A stretch of 64,000 nt of DNA, from assembly GCA_018263505.1 (NCBI GenBank), contig JAANXA010000028.1:1-64000 (forward strand), given 5' to 3'. Every line of letters begins with the position of its first letter. Positions within the stretch are counted from its first letter, which is position 1. Position numbers and translations under genes: made by a program. The stretch is from Candidatus Nitrosopumilus sp. (lineage in GTDB: Archaea > Thermoproteota > Nitrososphaeria > Nitrososphaerales > Nitrosopumilaceae). Positions 137 to 2,825 of this stretch are shown in pieces. Under the pieces are notes generated by a model, which ran no database searches, was not told the DNA's origin, and saw nothing but the letters and a program-made list of their open reading frames with translations.

Positions 137-391
137 GTTAGTGTTCATGCGAGTTAGTGATATAAAGCAAAGGTTTGAAAAATAACATAATTTAATGAAA
201 AATTTAATGGTATTTAATCCAATAAATGCATATTATTTAATTTCTTAAAATATTAAATAAAATAATTATAATAATTTTTTTCAATTTTCACTGTTTATCA
301 TTGATGATTAACAAGTAAAAAAACAACGATCCTAGTCATGAAGGCAAAACATATAACGACGTGGATTATCTTTTACAAATTAGGGATAACT

Positions 392-961
392 ATGGTCGAA
401 AAAAAGATTTTCGTATTCGGACTAGCTGTTGTATTAGCACTAGGAACTCTAGGTTTCAACTGGGTTGAGGCAATTGTTCCAACTGCAGATGCACACGGTG
501 TCCAAGCACAACTCCAAAGTCGTTTCATTAGAATTGAAGATGAAACCTTTAACAGACAATCCTTACAAACTGGCGAAACCTTGACTCTTCAAGGTACACT
601 AGTCAGTCTTGTAGAAAGAGACCTTAGAGGATGGATATCCATTTTCTCAGAGTCAACCAATGCAGGTAACAGATGGGAGATGTTAGCAAGAGATCCACCA
701 GGAAACGTCTTTGACATTCCAGGTAACGCTGTTGTTGAATATTCACTATCTGCAAAAGCACTTGAAGCAGGTGTATACCACGTACACACCCAACTCAATG
801 TAGCCCAAGTTGGTCCAGGACTTGGTCCAGGTCAAACAGTTGTCGTCGAAGGTGATCCAATTATCAAACCAATTCCATATACCAATATTGCATACCAATC
901 AATTATGATTGGTGTCGGATATGTGATTACGTTTGCAACAAGACCTTGGCAAGTGATCTAA
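392..961 (+). CDS. amoB: Ammonia monooxygenase subunit B, archaeal type
   Basis: MVEKKIFVFGLAVVLALGTLGFNWVEAIVPTADAHGVQAQLQSRF... is archaeal AmoB; the 18-aa extension from 338 is probably not used. Confidence 0.95.
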   Translation: MVEKKIFVFGLAVVLALGTLGFNWVEAIVPTADAHGVQAQLQSRFIRIEDETFNRQSLQTGETLTLQGTLVSLVERDLRGWISIFSESTNAGNRWEMLARDPPGNVFDIPGNAVVEYSLSAKALEAGVYHVHTQLNVAQVGPGLGPGQTVVVEGDPIIKPIPYTNIAYQSIMIGVGYVITFATRPWQVI

Positions 962-1117
962 ACAACCCTCTTTTCCTTTTCATTTTCTAGAGAATCATTA
1001 CGATTATCGTAAAGAGAACATACTGAGTCACCAAGTCCGTTCAAACCACCTATTTTTTGTTCAAGTGTATTTCTAAAATATCCATTTTAGTCTAATTTTG
1101 GACGTATTACAAGTGAA

Positions 1118-1135
1118 AAATACGCATGCGTATTT
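1118..1135. repeat. Perfect 18-bp palindrome
   Basis: AAATACGCATGCGTATTT. Confidence 0.9.
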
Positions 1136-1150
1136 ACTTTTTGTAACATC

Positions 1151-1259
1151 ACTTGAACAAATGAACGATTACTTGAACGATTTTGACATCACTTGAACGA
1201 AATGGTATTACACTTGAACAATTCTAGTTTTACTTGAATGAAAATGAATTTCGTTTGAA
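1151..1259. repeat. Phased heptamer array ACTTGAA with ~20-bp period
   Basis: ACTTGAA at 1151, 1171, 1191, 1212, 1232 and degenerate GTTTGAA at 1253. Confidence 0.85.
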
Positions 1260-1410
1260 ATATTAATTCGTTGAAATGGAATTGAGATGAAATGAAGAAT
1301 CATGCAAAAATACAAAACAAGAAAATAGGATTATTAAAATATCAAAATAGACAATTATGAAATAATAATCAAAAGAAAGGACTTTAAGGAATTATAATAA
1401 AAACATCATT

Positions 1411-1932
1411 ATGATTTGGCCAGGAACTGGAGATCCTTACAAAAGAAAAAAGACCATTAGATTCCTCATCATATCTACCGTAATTGGAATTGCTACTGCA
1501 GGTGTTGCATCAACAATTGGATCATTAGGAGATGAGAATAATCCATTAAAAGTTTGCATAGAAGATAGGAACACACCATTCAAAATCAAAGCATCATTAG
1601 AGCTGATAATTGATGGAGAGAAAGCAGACATTCCAGCCAATATCGGATTGAATGATGGCGAATGTCAAAGAACTATGTATACATTGACTAATGATGGTAC
1701 AATTTATGCAGAATGGGAAGAAGAATATCCATTTGAAATAGGTCACTTTTTGTGGATGTGGGACTTTCCTCTAAGAGATATGAATCAAGATAAATCAGCA
1801 ATTTATGTAAATGATAAAGAATCACCTCATTTCATCAATCATCCACTACAAAATGGATATCACTACAAAGCAGTATTTACATCAAAAGCATATGATGAAT
1901 CAAAAGATACAGACTTTTTGCCTGAGAATTAG
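1411..1932 (+). CDS. Conserved hypothetical protein with one N-terminal TM segment, downstream of amoB
   Basis: 173-aa ORF, N-terminal hydrophobic helix (TIRFLIISTVIGIATAGVAS) followed by a soluble domain. Confidence 0.6.
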   Translation: MIWPGTGDPYKRKKTIRFLIISTVIGIATAGVASTIGSLGDENNPLKVCIEDRNTPFKIKASLELIIDGEKADIPANIGLNDGECQRTMYTLTNDGTIYAEWEEEYPFEIGHFLWMWDFPLRDMNQDKSAIYVNDKESPHFINHPLQNGYHYKAVFTSKAYDESKDTDFLPEN

Positions 1933-2057: not shown

Positions 2058-2327
2058 TTACCAGTATTTACCGTTGTCTGGAATAAGACCAATACCTTCT
2101 CTTTCAAAGTGTCTGTCTAATTCATCAACCCATCTTTCACGGTTGTCTTTGTAAGCCCATCCGTGTACACGTAACCAGAATGAGATAATTCCAAGGAGGA
2201 ATATAGTGAACATCATGGTTCCGAAGATGTAAATCATTACATCATAGAATAATGGATCATAGTTTGGTCCTAATTGTCCTGTAATTGATGACAGGATGCT
2301 TAGGAAAGTACCTACGATAGGAATCAT
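2058..2327 (-). CDS. Small two-helix membrane protein; candidate accessory AMO subunit
   Basis: Likely start at 2327 (MIPIVGTFLSILSS...); 89 aa with two hydrophobic stretches and a charged C-terminus; the longer ORF start is probably spurious. Confidence 0.7.
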   Translation of the reverse strand: MIPIVGTFLSILSSITGQLGPNYDPLFYDVMIYIFGTMMFTIFLLGIISFWLRVHGWAYKDNRERWVDELDRHFEREGIGLIPDNGKYW

Positions 2328-2492
2328 AATAATTTGGCTCAATTTGTGCGATATATACATTTCTTTTGTTATCAAAGAGTACGAGATCAGTAATTCAGTT
2401 GTTGTGAGGACTTTATAGTGTGAGGACTTGATAGTGAAGAGCCCAGTATCCACTAAGAAAAGATAATAAAATAAGAGAAAATGGAGGTTTGT

Positions 2493-2825
2493 TTATCCTC
2501 TTCCCATTGCTGCGTATTTACCAGACATTCCTCTAATGAAGAAAGCTCCAGCAATACCACCAAATACGGCACCTGCAATTACTGCTGCACCAATTACACC
2601 ACCTGCATCAAGATACGGAGTTCCAGAACCAGATGCTGGGTTTGCCTCAGCAGATTCAATTCTTCGTCTTTGTAATTCAAGTGCTTCTTCTAGTGTATAT
2701 GTACCAGTTTGGCCACTATCACCGACGTTACCCATGTACTGTGCAAATGCTACTGCACTTTCTGCATAGAGTCCGATAGTGAAGACAGCGATTAAGGATG
2801 CTGCTAATAGTATTTTTGTATTCAT
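2493..2825 (-). CDS. Small exported/membrane protein; candidate accessory AMO subunit
   Basis: 110 aa: signal-peptide-like N-terminus (MNTKILLAASLIAVFTIGLYAESAVAFA) and C-terminal TM helix (GGVIGAAVIAGAVFGGIAGAFFI). Confidence 0.7.
   Translation of the reverse strand: MNTKILLAASLIAVFTIGLYAESAVAFAQYMGNVGDSGQTGTYTLEEALELQRRRIESAEANPASGSGTPYLDAGGVIGAAVIAGAVFGGIAGAFFIRGMSGKYAAMGRG

Follow-up and report, generated by a model that had tools for sequence, protein, structure and literature searches.

The phased repeat array behind amoB in a Nitrosopumilus genome is not an amoB-specific feature but one copy of a dispersed element of ~210 bp. Based on a comparison of its copies, we lean towards the view that the array is a multi-site platform for a lineage-specific protein, here termed HTHCC, and that it would have served first as an autoregulatory operator and been dispersed thereafter; that HTHCC binds the array we infer from sequence comparison.

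The array behind amoB and its dispersed copies

The window, i.e., the whole stretch of 64,000 nucleotides that was analyzed, contains the following features in and around the amoB copy (znr is a small gene described below).

338–961, plus strand: amoB (archaeal ammonia monooxygenase subunit B), an ORF with a Pfam Monooxygenase_B match of 25.1 bits against a cut-off of 22.7; neighbor, outside the element
969–1014, plus strand: pyrimidine tract, then inverted repeat TTACG-ATTAT-CGTAA; kept 3' of amoB in nearly all array-less relatives
1036–1244, plus strand: whole dispersed element, amoB copy, bounded by homology to the trx/TFB copy
1039–1044, minus strand: outer left box GTTCAA (minus-strand TTGAAC), confined to the amoB and trx copies apart from a version one base off in G078
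1059–1064, minus strand: inner left box GTTCAA; its distance to the palindrome core is 65 bp in every copy (64 in G089); codons 15–16 (Leu-Asn) of znr
1059–1104, minus strand: apparent decayed znr 5' end, limits approximate; in the 65-bp register common to znr copies
1118–1135, no strand: 18-bp palindrome AAATACGCATGCGTATTT, core GCATGC at 1124–1129
1138–1146, plus strand: near-invariant spacer TTTTTGTAA between palindrome and box 1 (low column entropies at offsets 14–22 in 13 copies)
1153–1158, plus strand: box 1, TTGAAC, 29 bp from the palindrome core in 13 of 13 copies
1161–1166, plus strand: half-box ATGAAC, about one helical turn past box 1; becomes ATGCAC along with the boxes in G013 and G044
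1173–1178, plus strand: box 2, TTGAAC, offset 49 in 13 of 13 copies
1193–1198, plus strand: box 3, TTGAAC, offset 69 except in the truncated C113 copy of G044
1214–1219, plus strand: box 4, TTGAAC, offset 89 or 90
1234–1239, plus strand: box 5, TTGAAT, the last box; homology to other copies stops just beyond
1411–1932, plus strand: next gene, an ORF of 173 amino acids (MIWPGTGDPYKRKK...), beside amoB in relatives too; no Pfam match

The particulars that the first-pass annotation had read from this region proved correct: ACTTGAA occurs at 1151, 1171, 1191, 1212 and 1232 with steps of 20, 20, 21 and 20 bp, a degenerate GTTTGAA is present at 1253, GTTCAA lies in the opposite orientation at 1039 and 1059, a perfect 18-bp palindrome stands between the two arms, and the upstream gene is amoB according to its Pfam match above the cut-off. 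The half-box and the recurrence of the array elsewhere in the genome had both been overlooked. GTTTGAA at 1253 and GTTCAA at 1039 are peripheral; homology to the second copy stops at 1244.

The heptamer itself is not enriched, ACTTGAA being found 21 times in the window against 20.85 expected. The signal is the phased run, not the abundance of the heptamer: the array is the only run of at least five 7-mers at 20–21 bp in the 64 kb, none of 100 Markov-randomised windows contained such a run, and the array is real, not chance. By itself the palindrome is weak evidence, with three of this kind in the window and ~0.5 per randomised window.

The genome (G000; 1.37 Mb in 68 contigs) was searched with a spaced box pattern and by BLAST of the intergenic region. 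The pattern gave ten matches, against none for a reversed control; such a genome-wide count had been proposed earlier. By BLAST, the element recurs at four loci (amoB, trx/TFB, C24 and C34). The amoB copy matches C68:13542–13750 (trx/TFB) with 96% identity over 209 bp. The trx/TFB copy is split over the ends of C68 and C14 (96–98% identical), which represent one locus because the ends share ~150 bp, 16 bp of it unique flank. The C24 copy (92% over 125 bp) adjoins znr and a toprim gene, and the C34 copy shows ~70% identity. The assembly breaks at three of the copy-bearing contig ends, as expected of repeats. Every copy is intergenic, and the flanking genes are unrelated (trx/TFB, toprim/GDH, rhomboid, probable aspartyl-tRNA synthetase).

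The element consists of an 18-bp palindrome with core GCATGC, followed by five to nine TTGAAC boxes (nine in the C34 array) spaced 20–21 bp apart as direct repeats with the consensus YTTGMAC. Across 13 copies from six genomes the first three boxes are offset from the palindrome core by 29, 49 and 69 bp (the third is cut off in one truncated copy) and the next ones mostly by 89/90 and 109/110; all steps measure 20 or 21 bp except for one of 19. This constant geometry favors the initial proposal of phased sites for a DNA-binding protein. No account of the element turned up in the literature searches.

Both arms of the supposed two-arm symmetry are present, but their symmetry is mostly fortuitous, since the inner left box is a relic of znr coding sequence. 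Because the left box of complete copies equals znr codons 15–16, the amoB copy seems to have arisen by duplication and dispersal, with the decayed start of znr still in place; in G089 it still reads ATGTCCAAAACTAGA, compared with ATGCTAAAAACTAGA in znr. Partner positions of the palindrome change together, giving TTTAGGCATGCCTAAA in C34-type copies.

At amoB, the element is absent from 18 of the 19 relatives examined and is shared only with the sister species G089. Conservation of the heptamer at this site, suggested as a check in the first-pass annotation, is thus not found beyond the sister species; yet the array belongs to a dispersed element and is not random. Nearly all relatives examined carry a pyrimidine tract and a TTACG-N5-CGTAA-type inverted repeat right behind amoB, and this conserved hairpin region (969–1014) is probably the 3' end of the amoB transcript, separate from the array. 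The loop of the inverted repeat ends in A-T, C-G or G-C in many congeners.

The further suggestion of a structured element that ends the amoB transcript, as a terminator or structured RNA of the 3' UTR, was rejected and seems to us scarcely credible. The single-strand fold is more stable than shuffles (z -2.84), but the array is preceded by the separate hairpin and pyrimidine tract and is missing in nearly all relatives, Rfam yields no match up to E=1, and the arm-to-arm pairing is not kept up in G013 and G044, where the left box is GTTCAA and the array TTGCAC. Paired changes occur mainly in the palindrome, as is likewise expected of a DNA operator. A regulatory site for amoB or the following 173-aa gene, which the location of the array and the intergenic position of all copies might suggest, is very unlikely: the array is lacking at amoB in 18 of 19 relatives, the sister copies adjoin unrelated genes, and the znr promoter part is decayed in the amoB copy.

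The surroundings differ between relatives at both sites. Between amoB and the next gene, most relatives (e.g., L085–L090) have an ORF of ~110 amino acids (MLSFKI..KLDIFQSYFFGEVEF...), which G000, G089 and G078 have lost and of which G014 and G035 retain a reduced form. Two small membrane-protein-like ORFs near amoB (window 2058–2453 and 2493–2825, minus strand) may, we presume, be further Amo subunits of the AmoX/Y/Z type. Behind trx, the next gene of relatives follows after ~60–150 bp; in G000, and in G089 judging by contig-end overlap, the element and a TFB gene (L010:3591–4502 with L014) lie in between.

The znr–HTHCC locus and the predicted protein

In three genomes (G000 on C34; G015, Nitrosopumilus sp. 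Nsub; G013, a BACL13 MAG) the array separates znr from a divergently oriented gene for HTHCC, a product of 425 amino acids with an N-terminal helix-turn-helix (HTH) followed by coiled coils; the presence of an HTH gene adjoining the array further favors phased protein-binding sites. A further small ORF (ORF3) lies downstream of HTHCC in G000 and G015. The palindrome overlaps the core promoter of znr, whose promoter part is TATA-like, and the znr protein starts with MLKTRARCPCCGTRLNEN... in complete copies. The znr product (L009:169–435) is a small protein with an acidic tail and a CPxCG motif resembling a zinc hook or knuckle; its match to Pfam Rad50_zn_hook is sub-threshold (E=0.15).

The AlphaFold model of HTHCC contains four helices (residues 7–18, 23–30, 34–48 and 50–64) and then long coiled coils, with the HTH at 23–48 (pLDDT ~85) and a predicted recognition helix at 34–48. 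Among the weak best Foldseek matches are LuxR/GerE-type HTH domains (probability at most 0.98, no E below 0.4). None of the Pfam HTH models scores above its cut-off for HTHCC, and sub-threshold matches are confined to its relatives (GerE, E=0.003; HTH_23, 3e-4). Searches for HTHCC found neither sequence relatives in the PDB nor phage or plasmid homologues.

We propose that in this home context the array is the regulatory region common to znr and HTHCC. Dimers or oligomers of HTHCC would occupy its TTGAAC boxes along almost a single face of the DNA, and HTHCC would probably regulate its own gene. Cooperative binding on one face is plausible because, with a helical turn of ~10.2 bp, successive boxes rotate only slightly round the helix. 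The palindrome, the boxes and a piece of znr would then have been duplicated into other intergenic sites, including the one behind amoB. These solo arrays have no intact gene and probably no promoter, while boxes and spacing are kept, and they most likely serve for that reason as extra HTHCC sites rather than in the control of amoB.

The link between array and HTHCC is weakened by G089, in which well-formed arrays persist and an HTHCC of this type was not found (94% complete genome; distant paralogue only). Its home locus is an empty site, with the flanking P391 and rhomboid genes 88 bp apart. In G044 the array, the start of znr and remnants of ORF3 persist at the home locus, and HTHCC is deleted there; HTHCC is missing in G044 and G078, both incomplete genomes.

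Among 252 Nitrosopumilaceae genomes, the box pattern (at most one mismatch) occurs in six (G000, G013, G015, G044, G078 and G089), five of which also have znr relatives, and HTHCC relatives occur in 13. Distant HTHCC relatives (~22% identity) retain the HTHCC–ORF3 pair, and several adjoin tyrosine integrases; none of their loci has a convincing phased array. In G015 and G089, a second HTHCC paralogue (L217, L232) has a TACGGTACCGTA-type palindrome just upstream, and the preceding ORF ends in FDETFDG repeats. The CATTTGA repeats before the C7 paralogue of G015 were not counted as an array, since their spacing in multiples of three was read as a peptide repeat. An integrated-element-like cluster in G007 (L213:3221–8963) unites znr-like, HTHCC and ORF3 genes with a ParA-type ATPase and a tyrosine integrase.

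This G007 locus, together with the long predicted coiled coils and the combination of own promoter and scattered sites as in SegB (PMC12284271), lends some appeal to a centromere-like function, in which HTHCC would coat arrays at several loci and bridge them via its coiled coil for partition or chromosome organization. We rate such a function as quite improbable, considering that array-bearing genomes lack a relative of the G007 ParA at 1e-6, that there are just four array loci in the own genome and that the distribution is accessory (6 of 252 genomes).

Evolution of boxes and spacers

Boxes are far better conserved than spacers. At two orthologous copies of G000 and G089, 1 of 60 box sites differs, compared to 39 of 128 spacer sites (Fisher p=0.002 and 0.0001 for the two copies taken separately). 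Copies within one genome evolve in concert: comparison of the amoB and trx copies over their right arms gives 98% identity in G000 and 90% in G089, whereas orthologous copies of the two genomes are 81% and 88% identical. The G089 amoB copy is a mosaic bearing a C34-type palindrome, from which we conclude that copies exchange sequence.

Almost every box, and the half-box too, has changed A to C (TTGCAC) in G013 and G044, with box 1 of G013 reading TTGGAC, while the spacers retain their separate identities and the left box, which is coding, is unchanged (GTTCAA, equal to TTGAAC). The preferential conservation of boxes and their concerted change in two species again agree with sites for a DNA-binding protein. 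The only HTHCC recovered among the two TTGCAC species, that of G013, has VSSSSVRN in place of the TSKGTITK of G000 and G015 at the predicted start of the recognition helix. A new arginine facing the new G of the opposite strand would fit a box switch accompanied by a recognition-helix change, although this covariation represents a single evolutionary contrast. Gene conversion could also spread a box change without selection; the diverged spacers argue against simple copying of units.

A non-autonomous, MITE-like element, with the outermost inverted TTGAAC boxes as ends and moved in trans by a recombinase, would attribute box conservation to recent copying and gene conversion without host function. 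Like MITEs and REP/BIME repeats, the element is short, non-coding, dispersed in near-identical copies and subject to concerted evolution. Its dispersed copies lack genes, the outer boxes mark the limit of homology between copies at either end, the amoB and trx copies of G000 are 98% identical versus 79–90% between genomes, and distant HTHCC relatives adjoin tyrosine integrases. However, phased internal boxes and a home locus with a predicted DNA-binding protein gene set it apart, and no target-site duplication was found, alone or with a terminal repeat: the empty home site of G089 shows no clear one, and the empty amoB site of G078 and trx sites of congeners are too diverged for base-exact junctions. 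Moreover, no transposase was found in or beside the home locus, where the inner left box is coding, boxes outlast spacers at two orthologous sites, and the box switch of G013 and G044 came without matching homogenization of spacers. We therefore regard a MITE-like origin as unlikely, though worth keeping in mind, and prefer a binding platform for HTHCC.

Relation to known systems and significance

Iterons and plasmid parC-type arrays consist of direct repeats about two helical turns apart, situated at or close to the promoter that drives the binding-protein gene. The same arrangement of ~two-turn direct repeats is present between znr and HTHCC in three genomes; unlike iterons and parC, the array is chromosomal and multi-locus, has no replication initiator, and has a partner ATPase only at one distant relative. 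A CRISPR array was rejected, as the box measures 6–8 bp versus ~24–40 bp for CRISPR repeats and the spacers are common to copies and species.

The archaeal protein SegB of Sulfolobus binds DNA at its own promoter and at sites dispersed along the chromosome; these sites are single 13-bp palindromes, mostly intragenic, and SegB acts with the SegA ATPase (PMC12284271, PMC5120986). The array similarly lies at the promoter of HTHCC and at further scattered loci. It differs in its phased direct repeats at 20–21 bp, intergenic position and accessory nature, no ParA/SegA ATPase gene being present at the home loci of G000 and G015, and its YTTGMAC boxes and GCATGC palindrome core do not fit the SegB motif TCTAGA-S-TCTAGA. 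AspA of the pNOB8 AspA-ParBA system binds one 23-bp palindrome and spreads (PMC5120986). HTHCC would resemble it as an HTH protein with a putative site upstream of its own gene in a small operon, yet there is no ParB here and HTHCC is unrelated to AspA by the searches made. In thaumarchaeal integrated elements, TFB and ParB-like genes are coupled in integrative-conjugative elements, according to the sections of the survey covered here (PMC6563490). In line with these, distant HTHCC relatives lie beside tyrosine integrases and one array copy abuts a TFB gene; the same sections describe neither a phased array nor an HTHCC-like family.

More speculatively, HTHCC and its arrays might form an undescribed archaeal system, nucleoid-organising or centromere-like and co-opted from a mobile element, that marks and bridges several chromosomal loci and in which protein and sites co-diverge into species dialects (TTGAAC/TTGCAC); we give this a low probability. 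Since the region 3' of amoB serves as an insertion site, the array stretch is to be treated as foreign in comparisons of the amo region. If the platform reading is true, ammonia-oxidising archaea would possess an accessory protein that binds DNA at arrays of its own; these would be multi-copy, phased and concertedly evolving, and one would have become inserted in the amo region. The system would then offer a natural experiment on protein–DNA specificity, involving one box base and a few residues of one helix, and a candidate for chromosome organization or mobile-element control where this group is little studied.
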